A stretch of DNA of 64,000 nt, from assembly GCA_016794585.1 (NCBI GenBank), contig JAEUJM010000014.1, forward strand, positions 1 to 64,000, in the 5' to 3' direction. Origin of the DNA: Acidimicrobiales bacterium. GTDB lineage: Bacteria; Actinomycetota; Acidimicrobiia; Acidimicrobiales; DATDAH01. Both the position numbers and the translations under genes were made by a program. Positions within the stretch are counted from its first letter, which is position 1. Each line of letters starts with the position of its first letter. Below the pieces are notes generated by a model. That model saw nothing but the letters and a program-made list of their open reading frames with translations. It did no database searches and had not been told where the DNA came from. This document shows, piece by piece, positions 1,215 through 8,578 of this stretch.

Positions 1215-2282
1215 TCACGGTTGGCCCTGCGCCAACAAGGCCTCCCAGACCGCTGCATCGATCTCCAGCGACCGGACCAGGTCGAGCGCGTCTTCGTCGG
1301 TCACGAACTCGGCCTGCATGATCCCCACGACGTTGTCACCCTCCATCCAGAAGAGTCGGGGACCATCGCTCGACCCAGCAAGGGCTACGACCCGATCCCC
1401 GATCTGGTGGATCGTCACGGGATGCTCCGGGTTGTCGAGGGCGAAGCTCAGGAGCTCGTCATAGGCGGTCAGGGCCGTCCCGGACTGCAAGCTGAGCTCG
1501 ACCTCGCCCGGGCCGGCGAATGAGATCTCCGCCTCGCGGTCTCCGATGATGAACTCGCCGCTCGCCCAGCCCGCTCCGAGCGACTCCCACCCTGCAGGCA
1601 CTTCCTGGCAACACGGCGCCGCATCCGGGTTGAAGAGCGCGATGCCCCCGATGTCGTCCACGAACGCCCGCACCTCGTCCGGCGACACGTTCAGTCCCTC
1701 GACGTCGGCGACCGTGCCGCCGAACCCCACCTCGAATCGCGTCTGGTCGCCCGAGAATTCGCATACTTCAGTCACGACCACGTCCGCCATCGAGTCGACC
1801 GTGCACGTGCCCTGGGCCTGGTCGTCGTCCGTCGTCCACGTCTCGACCTCGATGATCGACCAGGGGTCATCGACACTGCGGTAGATGCGCAGGTACCCGG
1901 GAACCGAGGATTCGCCGGTGGAGGCCGCACCTGTGGATGGAGGCCCCCCGAAATCGGCCGACTCGTTCGCACTCGTCGCGGTGTAGCCCGGAGCGGTGAT
2001 CACGAGCGGTGGCAGGCCTTGGGGGGAGATCGCGCCGTCGCGAGGGTCGGGCCAGGTCGGCGTCGTCGGCGCGCTGTCGATTGTGTCGAGACGGTCGTGG
2101 TCGCGGACGGCGATCCAGAGCAGCGTGCCGAGCACCGCCGCGAACGCAACAAGGGCGAGTCGCAGGACGTAGCGGGGGCGGCGACTCACCCGGGCCGAGG
2201 CGTGGTCAGGGCGTCGCAGTGCGATGCCCTCGACCCCGGAGGCGGCGAGGCCGTCGAGGCGATCGCGCAGGGGCGTAGTCAT
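1215..2282 (-). CDS. Membrane-anchored protein cotranscribed with ECF sigma factor
   Basis: The 355-residue protein has a short cytoplasmic N-terminus, one transmembrane helix at about residues 36-57 and a large outside domain rich in Asp, Gly, Ser and Thr. Its ATG overlaps the stop of the sigma-factor gene by 4 bp, so the two are translationally coupled. Position and topology fit the partner membrane protein often found after SigE-family ECF sigma genes. No zinc-binding anti-sigma (HxxxCxxC) motif is visible, so calling it an anti-sigma factor is an inference. The outer domain, which includes a CCQE pair of cysteines, is not one I recognise. Confidence 0.7.
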   Translation of the reverse strand: MTTPLRDRLDGLAASGVEGIALRRPDHASARVSRRPRYVLRLALVAFAAVLGTLLWIAVRDHDRLDTIDSAPTTPTWPDPRDGAISPQGLPPLVITAPGYTATSANESADFGGPPSTGAASTGESSVPGYLRIYRSVDDPWSIIEVETWTTDDDQAQGTCTVDSMADVVVTEVCEFSGDQTRFEVGFGGTVADVEGLNVSPDEVRAFVDDIGGIALFNPDAAPCCQEVPAGWESLGAGWASGEFIIGDREAEISFAGPGEVELSLQSGTALTAYDELLSFALDNPEHPVTIHQIGDRVVALAGSSDGPRLFWMEGDNVVGIMQAEFVTDEDALDLVRSLEIDAAVWEALLAQGQP

Positions 2283-2752
2283 CGAGATACCTCCTCTTCG
2301 TCACCAGGGGCGAGCAAGGTGCCCAACGTCGCACGTGCCCTGCTCAGGTGCTGCTTCACACTGCCGCCTGACACGCCCATGGCGTCTGCGCATCCAGCGA
2401 CGTCGAGATCGAGCCAGTAGAAGAGGATCACCGCTTCGCGCTGTCGCCGCGAGAGGCGACGCAACGCTTCCAAGAGATCCTGATCACTCACCGAGAACAC
2501 AACGGGAACGTCGGGCACCACCGCGTCCAGTCGCTGACGCCGCACGCGGCGCCACCGGTTCCGGCACAGGTTGAGTGCCACGGTCCTGGTCCACGCCGCC
2601 GGGTCCGTTGATTCGAGGTCGTCCCACCGCTGCCACGCCCGCGTCAGCGCCTCCTGTGCTGCGTCGGCGGCATCGCCCCGGTCGAGCGTCGCGAGCCAGC
2701 ACAGGCGGAGGATCTGGTCCCGCTGCTCGCTGTAGAAGTCGCCGAAGTCCAT
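2279..2752 (-). CDS. SigE-family ECF RNA polymerase sigma factor
   Basis: The 157-residue protein has the two-domain layout of group 4 sigma factors. Region 2 spans about residues 1-75 (FYSEQRDQILRLCWL, then DAADAAQEALTRAWQRW). Region 4 spans about 95-145 (LSRRQREAVILFYWLDL, then the recognition helix GGSVKQHLSRARATL). The pattern matches the actinobacterial SigE family. It heads a two-gene unit with the overlapping membrane protein. Upstream lies a possible autoregulatory promoter, CAACC about 17 bp before GTTC, which is the AAC/GTT style of ECF promoters. The same 14-mer CAACCAGTCGGGGG occurs again at the left edge of the window. Confidence 0.9.
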   Translation of the reverse strand: MDFGDFYSEQRDQILRLCWLATLDRGDAADAAQEALTRAWQRWDDLESTDPAAWTRTVALNLCRNRWRRVRRQRLDAVVPDVPVVFSVSDQDLLEALRRLSRRQREAVILFYWLDLDVAGCADAMGVSGGSVKQHLSRARATLGTLLAPGDEEEVSR

Positions 2753-2827: not shown

Positions 2828-3574
2828 CTACAGCTCTTCGCCGGCGGAGGCCCAGAAGCTGCCGAGGATGGCGGCGACCTCTTCCGGGCGTTGTGCCGGC
2901 CACCAGTGGCCGCAGCCCTCGAGGAGCACGAGGCGGCCGTCGACACGGGTGGCGAGGCGCTCCCCGTAGCGGGCGTCGACATAGGGGTCGTCGGTGGCCC
3001 ACAGCGCCAGCGCGGGCCGGGTGTTGGCCTCCACCGCCTCCTGCCAGTCGTCGCCCACGGTGACGGCCGAGCGGTAGAGGGCGAGGATGGACGAGCGCAT
3101 GGTGTCGTCGATGCGGCCGGCGGCGGCCAGGGCCTCGTCGGCGGGCACGCCGGCATCGATCAGCACCGGGGCCATCGTCTCGGCGGTCATGGCGGCGACC
3201 ACCTGCTCCCCCACGTCGGGCGTCTGGAACAGCTGGGCGGCGTCGTGCCACGTGTACTCCACGTCGACCGGCCCGTTGCCGGCCACCCAGGTGCGCACGA
3301 GGTCGGGTCGGCTCGAGCCCACGTACTGCACGAGCAGCGACCCCCAGTCGTGGCCGACGAGGTCGACGGGGGCGCCGGTCGACTCGACCACACCTTCGAG
3401 CTCGTCCACCAGCCAGGCGGCGTAGGCCTCCTTCGAGCAGTCGAACCCGTCCGGCACCGGGCACCCGAACCCGGGCAGCGCCGGCGTCTCCACGTCGGTG
3501 CGGGACAGGTGCGAGCGCACCGCGTCCCACACGTGGAACGTGTCGGGCACGCCATGGACGAGGACCGCGGTCAT
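2828..3574 (-). CDS. Alpha/beta hydrolase, epoxide hydrolase/dehalogenase-like
   Basis: The 248-residue protein opens with the oxyanion motif HGVPDTFHVWD. A nucleophile elbow GHDWGS places Asp76 as nucleophile, an acid lies at Asp196 or Asp200, and His223 sits in EGCGHWWPAQ. An Asp nucleophile in HDWG is typical of epoxide hydrolases and haloalkane dehalogenases rather than serine esterases. The lid Tyr pair and the halide-binding Trp cannot be assigned by eye, so the substrate is unknown. The ATG is preceded by TAGACC six nucleotides upstream, fitting the leaderless pattern of this region. Confidence 0.85.
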   Translation of the reverse strand: MTAVLVHGVPDTFHVWDAVRSHLSRTDVETPALPGFGCPVPDGFDCSKEAYAAWLVDELEGVVESTGAPVDLVGHDWGSLLVQYVGSSRPDLVRTWVAGNGPVDVEYTWHDAAQLFQTPDVGEQVVAAMTAETMAPVLIDAGVPADEALAAAGRIDDTMRSSILALYRSAVTVGDDWQEAVEANTRPALALWATDDPYVDARYGERLATRVDGRLVLLEGCGHWWPAQRPEEVAAILGSFWASAGEEL

Positions 3575-3891
3575 TGCGACGGTCTACCGCACCAGCGCCG
3601 ACCCGACGCCCGAACGGTGCCCCGGGCTGCCCGACGATCGGTCTCGACCGGCCGTCGCCCGCCCCCCGGGGCGCCCGCACGGCCCGACGCCGGACCCGGG
3701 GACGCCGGCGCCGAGCCGTGATCGCCGCCGGTGAGCGACCGGCGCCGGGTCGCGGCACCCGCCCCACCGGCCGATTGAAGACGCCACCGTTCCGGGGCCG
3801 GAACGCGAGCGCGCGGGGGCGCGGACCGATGCACCAGCCGCCCGCCGGCGCGCCGCCGACTGTCGGGGAGCGGGCCCCAGCCGGTAGCGTC
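3575..3891. other. Intergenic stretch before bL37
   Basis: About 320 bp lie between the divergent alpha/beta hydrolase start and the hydrolase/bL37 locus. Frames are open in both directions but none has recognisable protein sequence or a ribosome-binding site. The only signal I see is the TAGCGT hexamer at 3885-3890 that would serve bL37. The rest looks featureless and GC-rich. Confidence 0.5.
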
Positions 3892-6465
3892 CTACCTCTT
3901 ATGTCGAAGAAGACGGACAAGCGCAAGACCAACGCCCGCCGCAAGAAGGCCAACCACGGCCGCAAGCCCAACGCGGGGCGGTAGCCCCACCCGCCGCATC
4001 GCCAGCACCCACTGACGGGCGGCCTGTCGCTTCAGGCCCAAGCCCCGGTTCTTCTGGCGGGCGGCGAAGCGCACGGGCGCGGTGCGCTTGAGACGCACCT
4101 CGAGCGGCACCTTGGGCTCGGGCTCGGGCGGCGGTGCCGGGATCTCGAGGCCGGCGGGGCGCCAGCGGCGGCACGGCTGACGACGCAGCGCGTCGAGCGG
4201 GGGCAGCTCGGGCGACGGCTGGCCGTCGCGGGGCACCCAAGAGCGCACGACGGGCAGGACCACCGATGACGGCAACAGGTCGTCGACCGCGACGTCCACG
4301 ACGACCTTGCGACCGTGGTCGTCGACCCCCTCGGGCCAGAGCGCCCCGAGCTCCCAATGGGGCTGGTTGCCGCCGGCGGCGGTGACGGTGATGCCGAGGG
4401 ACGAACCGGCCCGCACCAGGTGCGCCGCCGAGGGCACCGGCACCCGCACGAGGGCGAACTCCCCGTCGGGCAGCGGCGTGACGTCGTCCCGTCGATAGCT
4501 GAGCCACGGCAGCAGCTCGGTGGAGCGCTCGTCGTCGAGGGCCCGGGAGCTGGCCCGGATGGCCCCGACCTGGACGAAGGTCTCCCAGCCGTCGGGGCGG
4601 ACCTCGCTCACCACCACCTCGAGGTCGATGTCCGGCGCCGTGCTGCGGACCCAGAGGTCGATGCTGCACGTGCCGGCGAGCAGGACGTCGCGGTCGAACG
4701 GCGGCGTGGCGAACTGGAGCCCTCGTCCGCCGGCGGGGGGCCGCCAGTCGTACTCGACGACGGGGAAGTTCACGTCGGGGGCGTCACCCTTGGAGGTGCG
4801 CGGCCGGGCCGAGGGGTCGTAGTGGAAGCCGAGGGGTCGGGCGCCGGCGCGTGGAGGCGAGGACGAGAGCCGGTGGTCGGGGGCGAGGTACCAGCGCTCG
4901 GGACGGGCATCCGCCGGGGGCCAGCGGTCGAACGCCACCGAGAACGCGGCGTAGGGGTACCCCGGCGGCCGACCCGGTGCGGCGCCGTTGTCGAACCAGA
5001 CGAGGTAGGGCGGCGCCGCCAGGTAGGCCGCGAGGGCGTCGTCGAAGGAGCGCCCGGCAGCGTGGCGGAACTCGACGGGGAGCCCCTCGGGGAACATGTA
5101 CTCGGTGACCGTGTCCAGGTAGCGGCCGGCGGCCTCGGGCCACGTGGGCAGCTCCTCGCGGACGAAGAACGCCAGGAACTCGAGCCACTGGACCGCCGCC
5201 AGCGGGAAGCGGGTCTCCTCGTGGGTGCCGTTGTACGCGGCGAGCCGCACGACGGTGTCTTCCGGATACTTGTCCAGCAGGTCGGTGAACCACGGGCCGG
5301 ACTCCTGGTCCTGCCACGCGCCCAGGATCAGTGTCGGCACCCGGGTGCGGGCGGCCCACTCCTCGCCGTCGGCGTGGGCGAGGACGCCGCCCTCCTCCTG
5401 GTCGACGAACGCCCAGGCCGGCACGGCGTCGACGGCCTGCCCCCGCAACAGCTGGTTGTGCTCGCAGACCTCGTCACCCGCCGCGATGCGGGCCGCGACC
5501 CAGTCGTCCCACCCTCCGGGCTCGTAACGGGGCGGCTGCACCTGCGGGACCCCGCCCGGCGGGTCGACGGGGTCGACCTGCCACCCGGCGATGCCGCGGG
5601 CGAGGGCCACGTTCAGCACGCCGCCCGGGCGCCCGGCGGCGCCGTAGGGCCGGCCGCCGACCGCGGCGGGGGTGACGGCGGCGAGCGACGGCGGGTTGTA
5701 CGACGCGACGAGGAGTTGCTCGTAGCCGGGCATCGACCGGCCGATCATCCCGACCTTGGGTGAGCCGTCGCGCTTGCGGGCCACCCACGGCTGCGCCGCC
5801 ACGGCCTCGATGACGTCGTGGCCGTCGGTGCCCTGGATGGGCTCGAGCAGGAGGAACGAGCCCTCGGAGCCGGCGGACCCCCGGATCGCGGCACCGACCA
5901 CGGCGTAGCCGCACAAAAGAGCCAGGTTGGCCTCGGTGTTCAGGACGTTCTCGTTGGCGGGGTCACCGGTGGCGAAGTCCGGCTTCGAGTCCTTGTAGCC
6001 CGAGTACTGCACGAGGGTGGGGTACGGACCGTCCCCCCACTCGGCGGCGTCGGGCAGGCTCACGTTGATGCTGAGGAGGGCGCCGTCGCGGACCTCGACG
6101 TAGCCGTAGCCCGGCTCGAGGCGCTGGCCCCGGACCCGTTCGTCGAAGTCGTCGGGAAGGACGAAGGGGTCCAGCACCGTGACCGGCACGGCCTCCCGGC
6201 CGGCACCACCGTCGCCGTCGGTCCCCTCCCCCAGTACGAGCGTGTACGGGCCCGGGTCCAGGTGGCGGAACACCAGACCGCCGAGGCCCTTCAGGCCGTC
6301 GGTGACCCCGAGGTCGGCCAGCGTGAGGCGGTCGCCGAAGTGGTCGATGGCCCCGGCGCGCACGACCTCGCCGGTCGCGTCGCGCAGCTCGACGGGCGTG
6401 CCCGCCGGCCCGGTCACCGAGACCTGCCGGACGCTGCCCCGGACCGAGAAGGGAGATTCCGTCAC
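3892..6465 (-). CDS. CocE/NonD-family (X-Pro dipeptidyl-peptidase S15-like) hydrolase
   Basis: This is an 857-residue serine hydrolase. Residues 1-100 form a beta-rich extension. The catalytic domain follows with the oxyanion region YSGYKDSKPD, the nucleophile in GMIGRSMPGYEQ (Ser244), a GAWQDQESGP acid loop and NGTHEET for the histidine. A C-terminal X-Pro-peptidase jelly-roll domain (from about 560) ends with VPVPSAAHLVRAGSSL-type strands. The substrate could be an ester or a peptide. The start is the GTG at 6465, because the family homology begins with VTESPF and the divergent gene starts 20 bp away. The last ~30 residues are Leu/Ala/Val-rich only because they read antisense through the bL37 gene. 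Confidence 0.88.
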   Translation of the reverse strand: MTESPFSVRGSVRQVSVTGPAGTPVELRDATGEVVRAGAIDHFGDRLTLADLGVTDGLKGLGGLVFRHLDPGPYTLVLGEGTDGDGGAGREAVPVTVLDPFVLPDDFDERVRGQRLEPGYGYVEVRDGALLSINVSLPDAAEWGDGPYPTLVQYSGYKDSKPDFATGDPANENVLNTEANLALLCGYAVVGAAIRGSAGSEGSFLLLEPIQGTDGHDVIEAVAAQPWVARKRDGSPKVGMIGRSMPGYEQLLVASYNPPSLAAVTPAAVGGRPYGAAGRPGGVLNVALARGIAGWQVDPVDPPGGVPQVQPPRYEPGGWDDWVAARIAAGDEVCEHNQLLRGQAVDAVPAWAFVDQEEGGVLAHADGEEWAARTRVPTLILGAWQDQESGPWFTDLLDKYPEDTVVRLAAYNGTHEETRFPLAAVQWLEFLAFFVREELPTWPEAAGRYLDTVTEYMFPEGLPVEFRHAAGRSFDDALAAYLAAPPYLVWFDNGAAPGRPPGYPYAAFSVAFDRWPPADARPERWYLAPDHRLSSSPPRAGARPLGFHYDPSARPRTSKGDAPDVNFPVVEYDWRPPAGGRGLQFATPPFDRDVLLAGTCSIDLWVRSTAPDIDLEVVVSEVRPDGWETFVQVGAIRASSRALDDERSTELLPWLSYRRDDVTPLPDGEFALVRVPVPSAAHLVRAGSSLGITVTAAGGNQPHWELGALWPEGVDDHGRKVVVDVAVDDLLPSSVVLPVVRSWVPRDGQPSPELPPLDALRRQPCRRWRPAGLEIPAPPPEPEPKVPLEVRLKRTAPVRFAARQKNRGLGLKRQAARQWVLAMRRVGLPPRVGLAAVVGLLAAGVGLALVRLLRHKR
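3901..3984 (+). CDS. Ribosomal protein bL37-like micro-protein
   Basis: The 27-residue, extremely basic peptide begins MSKKTDKRK and ends in ARRKKANHGRKPNAGR. The NHG(K/R)(R/K)PNA ending is the hallmark of bL37, the tiny actinobacterial 50S subunit protein first seen in mycobacterial ribosome structures. The gene lies entirely antisense within the 3' end of the CocE-type hydrolase. A TAGCGT hexamer ends 10 bp before the ATG and no Shine-Dalgarno is present, so transcription probably starts just upstream. It is easily missed by gene finders because of its size. Confidence 0.85.
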   Translation: MSKKTDKRKTNARRKKANHGRKPNAGR

Positions 6466-6484: not shown

Positions 6485-8578
6485 GTGGCGCCCGTCGAAC
6501 CGACCCCCGCCGGACCGGCGTCCGAGCCGGCCGTCCCGGCACCACCTCCCACCCGCCGCCTCGACCTCGTCGAGACGCTGCACGGCATCGAGGTCGCCGA
6601 CCCGTACCGGTGGCTCGAAGCCGACGACGACCCGGAGGTGACGGACTGGGTCGCGGCCCAGAACGCCCGTAGCCGAGCGCTCCTCGACGCGCTGCCCGGC
6701 CGGGACGCCATCCGGGCCCGACTCCTCCCGCTGTTGCAGGCGCCGGTCACCTCCGCCCCCCGGGTCAAGGGCGACCGCGTGTTCACCGTCGACCGGGGCG
6801 GCGACCGGGAACAGGCGGTGCTGTGCGTCCGCCCGGCCCTCGGCGCGACCCCCGAGGACCCGAGGGTGCTGGTCGATCCCGCCGCCCTCCTCGGCGACGC
6901 CACCGCCGCCCTCGACTGGTACCACCCCTCCCCGGACGGCCGACTCGTGGCCTTCGGCCTGTCCACCGGCGGAGACGAGCAGAGCACCCTGCACCTCCTC
7001 GACGTCGACGAGGGCGAGCTCCTCGCCGACGTGATCCCCCACGCCCGCGCCGCGTCCGTGGCCTGGCTGCCCGACGGGTCGGCGTTCGCGTACGCCCGCT
7101 ACCCGGACCCTGCCACCGTCGCCGAGGGCGAGGAGGGCTACGGCCGCCACCTGTGCTGGCACGTGGTCGGCACCGACCCGACCCTCGACCCGGTCGTGTT
7201 CCCCGCTCCCGAGGACCGCACCGCTTGGCCAGACGGGTCGCTCTCCGACGACGGGCGCTGGCTGCTGGTGCACGTCGCCTACGGCTGGAGCCGGGTCGAC
7301 GTGCACCTCCACGACCGCGAGGCAGGCACGTGGCGCGTGGTCAGCGAGGGCGTGGAGGCCGTCAACGGATTCGCCGTGGTCGGCGACCGGCTGGTGGGCA
7401 GCACCACCGTCGACGCCGACCGGGGCCGGATCGTCGCCGCGGCGCTCGACCAGCCCGGGGTCGAGGACTGGACGACCCTCGTGCCCGAGGGTGATGCCGT
7501 GATCGAGGGCTTCGTGGCCACCCCGGCGTCGCTCCTCGTGGCCTCGACCCGCCACGCCGAGGCCTTGCTCACCCGGTACGACCTCGACGGCTCGGGCGGC
7601 GAGCCCGTCACCCTGCCCGAAACCGGATCCCTGGCCGGCCTCTCCGGCTCGAGCGAACGCGACGAGGCGTTCTTCGCCTTCACGTCGTTCACCCGCCCTG
7701 CGCAGCTGTTCCGTTGGTCCCGGGCCGCGGGCGTGGCGCCTTGGAGCGAGCCGGCCGCCGGTCTGGAGCCGGACGCGTTCACGGTCGAGCGGCTCGAGTA
7801 CCCGTCCACCGACGGCGCCGCCATCTCGATGTTCGTGGTGCGCCGCCAGGACACCGTGCCCTCCCCCGACACCCGCACCGCGCTGACCGGCTACGGGGGG
7901 TTCGGCGTCACCATGAGCCCCGTCTACTCCCCCGCAGCGGTCGAGGTGGCCGGCCAGGGCGGCTGCTTCGCGGTCGCCTGCCTCCGCGGCGGGGCCGAGG
8001 AGGGCGAGGCCTGGCACCAGGCGGGCACCCGCGAGCGCAAGCAGCAGGTTTTCGACGACTTCCACGCCGCCGCCGACTGGTTGGTCGAGCAGGGGCGCAC
8101 CTCCCGCGAGCGACTGGCCATCCGCGGCGGCAGCAACGGCGGGTTGCTCGTCGGTGCCGCGCTGACCCAACGCCCCGACCTGTGCGCCGCCGTCCACTGC
8201 GCGGTGCCGCTCCTGGACATGGTGCGCTTCCACCGGTTCCTCATCGCCCGCCTCTGGATCCCCGAGTACGGCGATCCCGACGAGGCCGACGACCTGGCCT
8301 GGCTCCACGCCTACTCCCCTTACCACCGGGTCGTGGACGGCACCTGCTATCCCGCCGTCCTGCTCACCTCCGGTGAGGGGGACTCACGGGTCCACCCGAT
8401 GCACGCCCGCAAGATGGCGGCCCGGCTCCAGCGCGCCACCAGCTGCGGCGAGGCCCACCCCGTCCTGCTCCAGATCGAGGCCCGGGCCGGCCACGGCCAG
8501 GGCAAGCCCGTGGGCATGCAGGCCGACGAGCTCGCCGACGTGCTCGCCTTCTTCGGCCACCAGCTGGCCGGGGAGTGA
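6485..8578 (+). CDS. Prolyl oligopeptidase (S9A family serine peptidase)
   Basis: The 697-residue cytoplasmic peptidase would cleave after proline in short peptides. The N-terminal segment RLDLVETLHGIEVADPYRWLE is family-typical. A seven-bladed propeller follows (about 80-420), then the hydrolase domain with YGGFGVTMSPVYSP, Ser550 in RGGSNGG, Asp633 in GEGDSRVHP and His670 in GHGQGKP, so the triad is complete. Length matches the family (about 700). No signal peptide is visible. The GTG start is set by the first family residues and the leaderless hexamer. It is transcribed divergently from the S15-like hydrolase, giving a pair of peptidase-type genes with joint control. Confidence 0.93.
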   Translation: MAPVEPTPAGPASEPAVPAPPPTRRLDLVETLHGIEVADPYRWLEADDDPEVTDWVAAQNARSRALLDALPGRDAIRARLLPLLQAPVTSAPRVKGDRVFTVDRGGDREQAVLCVRPALGATPEDPRVLVDPAALLGDATAALDWYHPSPDGRLVAFGLSTGGDEQSTLHLLDVDEGELLADVIPHARAASVAWLPDGSAFAYARYPDPATVAEGEEGYGRHLCWHVVGTDPTLDPVVFPAPEDRTAWPDGSLSDDGRWLLVHVAYGWSRVDVHLHDREAGTWRVVSEGVEAVNGFAVVGDRLVGSTTVDADRGRIVAAALDQPGVEDWTTLVPEGDAVIEGFVATPASLLVASTRHAEALLTRYDLDGSGGEPVTLPETGSLAGLSGSSERDEAFFAFTSFTRPAQLFRWSRAAGVAPWSEPAAGLEPDAFTVERLEYPSTDGAAISMFVVRRQDTVPSPDTRTALTGYGGFGVTMSPVYSPAAVEVAGQGGCFAVACLRGGAEEGEAWHQAGTRERKQQVFDDFHAAADWLVEQGRTSRERLAIRGGSNGGLLVGAALTQRPDLCAAVHCAVPLLDMVRFHRFLIARLWIPEYGDPDEADDLAWLHAYSPYHRVVDGTCYPAVLLTSGEGDSRVHPMHARKMAARLQRATSCGEAHPVLLQIEARAGHGQGKPVGMQADELADVLAFFGHQLAGE

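Follow-up and report, generated by a model that had tools for sequence, protein, structure and literature searches.

A bL37 ribosomal protein gene nested antisense in a CocE-type hydrolase frame: probable read-through from an inserted neighbour

In the genome of an Acidimicrobiales bacterium, the frame of a CocE-type hydrolase gene runs through the whole of a bL37 ribosomal protein gene on the other strand and ends there in a membrane-like segment. Did the overlap give the hydrolase a membrane tail, or is the tail a passive consequence of one gene running into another? In the window (i.e. the entire stretch analysed, 64,000 nucleotides of contig JAEUJM010000014.1), bL37 lies wholly inside the hydrolase frame, on the opposite strand and codon on codon; past the bL37 ATG, the hydrolase frame holds two more codons and then its stop, positioned between the bL37 -10 box and the ATG. 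The full antisense nesting claimed in a preliminary description of this DNA is thus borne out, with 3901-3984 lying in register within 3892-6465. Gene callers easily overlook a gene of 84 bp that lies within a convincing frame of 857 codons. The features of the locus are the following:

2828..3574, minus strand: alpha/beta hydrolase gene on the other side of bL37 (neighbourhood reading)
3885..3890, plus strand: predicted -10 box TAGCGT of bL37 (TANNNT spacing; 16 nt before the ATG)
3892..6465, minus strand: CocE/NonD (X-Pro dipeptidyl-peptidase S15-like) hydrolase, 857 aa, GTG start (domain and TIGRFAM matches)
3892..3978, minus strand: antisense-of-bL37 tail of the hydrolase, residues 830-857 and stop, hydrophobic, lacking hydrolase codon usage
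3901..3984, plus strand: bL37 gene, 27 aa, ATG to TAG (profile and PDB matches, genomes of relatives)
3979..4149, minus strand: window-specific C-terminal extension of the hydrolase (residues 773-829); codon usage is coding-like, and the final two codons overlap the bL37 stop region
4168..6465, minus strand: hydrolase part common to homologues, residues 1-766, to the conserved R.QPCR motif (homologue comparison)
6485..8578, plus strand: S9 prolyl oligopeptidase gene, directly after bL37 in relatives (synteny)

Identity of the two genes

Plus-strand positions 3901-3984 (84 bp with the stop) encode MSKKTDKRKTNARRKKANHGRKPNAGR, followed by the stop codon. This peptide aligned over its full length with the profile NF047428 (ribo_Myco_bL37; profile positions 1-24 of 24), at a score of 21.2 bits, which is below the curated cut-off of 30 bits, the naming rule of a model labelled for mycobacteria. 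The KANHGxxPN core is kept, and A17, N18, H19, G20, P23 and N24 are invariant among 14 aligned sequences (the window and 13 relatives), all 14 of which matched NF047428 at E <= 0.1 (best, 3.5e-11). When the PDB was searched with the window sequence alone, bL37 chains were found (best E, 0.011), and with the 14-sequence profile, all five distinct sequences at E <= 10 were bL37 or bL37-like (best E, 8.7e-5). Among the relatives compared (98 other genomes of the same order, from other families and genera) together with the genome itself, bL37 matches were present in 86 of 99; in a larger draw from the order, bL37-like genes were identified in 348 of 397 genomes, again with the own genome included. 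The same 27 residues, without a change, occur in two other genomes. No match at E 0.1 was found in 13 of the 99 genomes (e.g. G003, G014, G019 and G057), several of them rated more than 90% complete, which may reflect divergence or true loss. The own genome, rated 98.4% complete, has one such match, i.e. bL37 is single copy. The preliminary identification as bL37 agrees both with this spread among genomes and with the PDB profile search; homologues of the 27-residue peptide, the absence of which from relatives would speak against it, were checked for and are present.

Judged from the sequence comparisons, we assign the product of 3901-3984 to bL37 with high confidence, with putative binding to the ribosome. 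It has in common with bL37 of mycobacterial and Cutibacterium ribosomes (NF047428; PDB 5o60, 7kgb, 8crx) the KANHGK/RPN core, the size and the basic composition, but has 27 residues rather than 24, and its gene is nested antisense. In C. acnes, bL37 is located beneath the tip of the 5S rRNA and close to the peptidyl-transferase centre (PMC10085706).

A TANNNT motif starts 10 to 20 nt 5' of the bL37 start codon in 71 of 83 loci, compared to 23 of 1405 control windows further upstream (the loci are the window and 82 of the 85 fetched relatives, L061-L145; L104, L120 and L142, in which the ORF was not recovered, were left out). In M. tuberculosis, TANNNT serves as the -10 motif, with its centre 7-12 bp ahead of the transcription start, and leaderless transcripts are common (PMC3898074); bL37 thus probably has its own promoter and a leaderless or nearly leaderless mRNA. 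In those same 71 loci bL37 looks leaderless or nearly so; for M. tuberculosis, PMC3898074 records that ribosomal proteins on leaderless mRNA were not found.

The hydrolase frame has its likely start at GTG 6465 and its stop at 3892-3894. A TACCTT sequence starts 14 nt upstream of the GTG, and the hydrolase mRNA is predicted to be leaderless. The protein scores 109.5 bits against TIGR00976 (cut-off, 66.3 bits) and contains two Pfam domains above gathering, PF02129 (Peptidase_S15, 74.8 bits) and PF08530 (PepX_C, 82.3 bits), in line with its earlier description as a CocE-type hydrolase. Both domains are shared with the CocE/NonD family (TIGR00976), but the first cysteine of the C...RGQPCR end is missing, no signal peptide is seen by eye, and 91 residues follow the motif. 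Most homologues have a hydrophobic export signal or a lipobox at the start (signal peptides were judged by eye throughout); neither is present in the window protein, L047, L059 or L060. A search for close relatives of the hydrolase by peptide patterns in genome contigs gave 80 pattern matches, none of which was confirmed.

Neighbours of bL37 and the order of events

The S9 gene lies directly 3' of bL37 in 8 of 82 relatives, starting at +109 to +238 from the bL37 start. In the window, an S9 gene that is 49-62% identical to those of the relatives (the match to L106 covers only 83 residues) is on the same strand as bL37, starting at +2584, with the hydrolase in the gap. Because S9 adjoins bL37 in eight relatives and is 2.5 kb away in the window with the hydrolase between them, gene order suggests that the hydrolase is the newcomer, inserted between two old neighbours. 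A close bL37-S9 pair was also present in L196, L158 and L163 of a second, partly overlapping set of loci (in this set, L162 gave no bL37 and L159 was left out). Relocation of bL37 alone, in its simple form, was considered and rejected: bL37 is still on the same side of its old partner S9, with the hydrolase in between.

Other minus-strand genes occupy the bL37-S9 gap in other genomes: L181 has a TetR-type gene there, whereas the genes of L192 and L199 are HODM-like, that of L192 ending 3 nt after bL37. With TetR, HODM-like and CocE genes found there depending on the genome, the gap has the appearance of a repeated insertion site.

On the upstream side, 60 of 83 loci encode YchF, often with DUF192 and RsmI, on the opposite strand, and 15 of 83 have a PHP-domain gene on the same strand. 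In the own genome, the PHP-ychF-DUF192 group is on another contig (C41), with no bL37 there, and bL37 is thus separated from its old upstream neighbour too; as far as gene order tells, both sides of bL37 are rearranged, the PHP-bL37 break included. In most of the order (L061-L145), the divergent ychF-DUF192-rsmI group is about 0.05-2.5 kb upstream of bL37; YchF is a member of a ribosome-binding GTPase family, and RsmI is a 16S rRNA methylase.

A CocE gene was found in none of the 82 other bL37 neighbourhoods, so that it stands beside bL37 in one locus of 83, the window. Convergent GDPD genes near bL37 end 3 to 153 nt downstream of its stop codon in 18 of 18 loci, with no overlap. The overlap is a one-off, and the window is the exception among convergent bL37 neighbours. 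In the open-licence literature, which was the scope of the search, no description of such an antisense pair at bL37 was found.

The C-terminal extension and the antisense tail

For comparison of the C-termini, 41 homologue frames were read (29 + 12), of which 40 were counted as complete; L048 (cut off at the end of its contig) and L162 (a distant match over part of the sequence) were not part of the count, and, among three other CocE paralogues in the own genome, the C-terminus was read for L057 only. Complete homologues end within about 32 residues of R.QPCR in 36 of 40 cases; the window hydrolase continues for 91. The four that run on are L055, L058, L147 and L154. L055 and L058 have hydrophobic C-terminal tails of their own, differing in sequence from that of the window; one of these comes after an LPVTG motif. 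The tail of the window was found at none of the 40 ends, i.e. homologues away from bL37 do not carry it. When 395 genomes of the class, the own genome included, were searched with the 69-residue tail, no credible relative was found. The best other match (E 4.8e-4, in one genome) crosses a stop codon and is followed by a graded run of similar weak matches, and was taken as noise. Nor did matches of the tail to bL37 loci go beyond chance.

A codon-usage score derived from 27 other frames of the window separates two parts of the extension. In the body of the hydrolase, the score per codon averages 0.33 (55-codon windows). Residues 773-829 score 0.14, a value reached by 0.75% of 2655 wrong-frame windows; the nested residues 830-857 score -0.97, less than any 28-codon window of the body (minimum, -0.18). 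Thus, the extension looks coding until about the 3' end of bL37, beyond which the sequence belongs to bL37. Coding-like usage in both frames over the shared stretch was not observed, bL37 scoring +0.22 in its own frame where the hydrolase scores -0.97. In 3985-4170, a stop is present in just one of the three minus frames (near 4030), so that a frame ending in this region without a stop of its own would run into bL37 in two frames of three.

The tail, LAAVVGLLAAGVGLALVRLL, is as quoted in the preliminary description, and its membrane-like character stands: the best 19-residue Kyte-Doolittle mean (KD19) is 2.49, with basic flanks beside the hydrophobic segment. Read in register on the other strand, AAG becomes CTT (Leu), CGC becomes GCG (Ala), AAC becomes GTT (Val) and GCC becomes GGC (Gly). 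Of the 83 loci, 71 have an open frame antisense to bL37, and in 67 the antisense of bL37 reaches a KD19 of at least 1.6. Among 5000 random synonymous recodings of the window bL37, 98.5% stay open and 92% reach 1.6, compared to 0.9% of 694 antisense stretches of other genes. An open, hydrophobic antisense frame is expected from the composition of bL37. The window value of 2.49 is, however, at the high end of this null, being reached by only 1.8% of recodings.

Explanations of the overlap

The likely explanation, in our judgement, is that a hydrolase gene was inserted beside an old bL37 gene and reads through into it passively, which accounts for nearly all of the observations. We favour it because the homologues lack the tail, hydrolase usage is not seen in the last 28 codons, and the antisense of bL37 is hydrophobic in most genomes regardless of its neighbours. 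Under this scenario, bL37 would be an old, independent gene with a promoter of its own and probably a leaderless mRNA; a CocE-type gene would have been inserted on the opposite strand between bL37 and S9 in the lineage of this genome, as synteny supports, and would have lacked a stop codon of its own, either on arrival or later. Having no stop, the hydrolase frame would continue through bL37 to the first in-register stop, just inside the bL37 promoter region. The last 28 residues would then be the reverse complement of Lys-, Arg- and Asn-rich codons, read as Leu, Ala, Gly and Val, a membrane-like segment formed passively, and the protein sequence of bL37 would have been kept despite the overlap. 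Two points count against a purely passive reading, namely the high rank of the tail among the recodings and the coding-like residues 773-829; given the latter, part of the extension looks like a real reading frame rather than a simple stop loss at the domain end.

The pair is a known kind of overlapping genes with an unusual polarity, the small gene being old and the long gene new. In laoB/ECs5115 of E. coli O157:H7, a small gene is likewise embedded antisense to a larger one, but there the small gene is young and arose by overprinting (PMC5810103), whereas at bL37 an ancient small gene is covered by a long newcomer. Elongation of a 3' end after stop disruption, as described in PMC3887535, extends a gene into its neighbour with no need of selection, as proposed here for the hydrolase; that model concerns same-strand overlaps, whereas bL37 and the hydrolase are on opposite strands and completely nested. 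The locus would thus offer a clear polarised example of an old, conserved microgene overrun by an inserted neighbour, as opposed to a new gene born on an old one. It also means that membrane-like antisense tails over basic ribosomal genes are not to be read as function without orthologues.

An unlikely alternative is that the tail is a selected membrane anchor: through the overlap, a hydrolase with no signal peptide would have acquired a C-terminal transmembrane helix and would now be tethered by it to the inner membrane face. The KD19 of 2.49 with basic flanks fits such an anchor, L055 and L058 (2 of 40 homologues), with their independent tails, provide some family precedent for C-terminal anchoring, and residues 773-829 could be a linker. 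However, comparable hydrophobicity is expected of nearly any bL37 antisense, the nested codons do not show hydrolase usage, and most homologues appear by eye to have an N-terminal export signal, which the window protein lacks. Moreover, third positions of bL37, which coincide with the first positions of the tail codons, vary between the window and 20 relatives as much as they do among these relatives (rank 15 of 21; with 27 codons, a weak test), so no brake from a second frame is seen. Also unlikely is the birth, in one step, of a working C-terminal membrane anchor from the antisense of a basic RNA-binding peptide, fused to the hydrolase by insertion and expressed in antagonism with bL37. Of the two options left by the preliminary description, passive read-through is favoured by the homologue ends, codon usage and generic antisense hydrophobicity, and a membrane tail created by the overlap is literally possible but, as a function, unsupported. 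None of the observations calls for a selected anchor or for transcriptional coupling.

Regulatory coupling, whereby convergent transcription or antisense RNA would tie hydrolase expression to bL37 supply, seems very improbable. If both genes are expressed, their transcripts must share 84 bp or more, and TANNNT boxes are near the starts of both; yet the arrangement occurs in one genome only, and the convergent GDPD neighbours of 18 loci all avoid overlap. Two terminator-like matches were detected in 3560-4200 (mean of 0.2 in shuffles), but both are weak, one inside the overlap and the other over the bL37 promoter, and folds are unremarkable (best z-score of three, -2.0).

That an assembly or sequencing error removed the hydrolase stop or shifted the frame, so that the overlap would be an artefact, would fit the single genome and homologues that end about 85 residues earlier, but is highly improbable given hydrolase-like codon usage up to about residue 820, a stop in only one of three minus frames in 3985-4170, whereby most frame shifts would still reach bL37, and a 94 kb contig in a genome of such high rated completeness.

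Elsewhere in the window, a gene for a sigma-70-type (ECF-like) sigma factor is located at 2279-2752 on the minus strand and is followed by one for a 355-residue protein with no Pfam match (region 1215-2752, minus strand), possibly the anti-sigma factor of this sigma factor.
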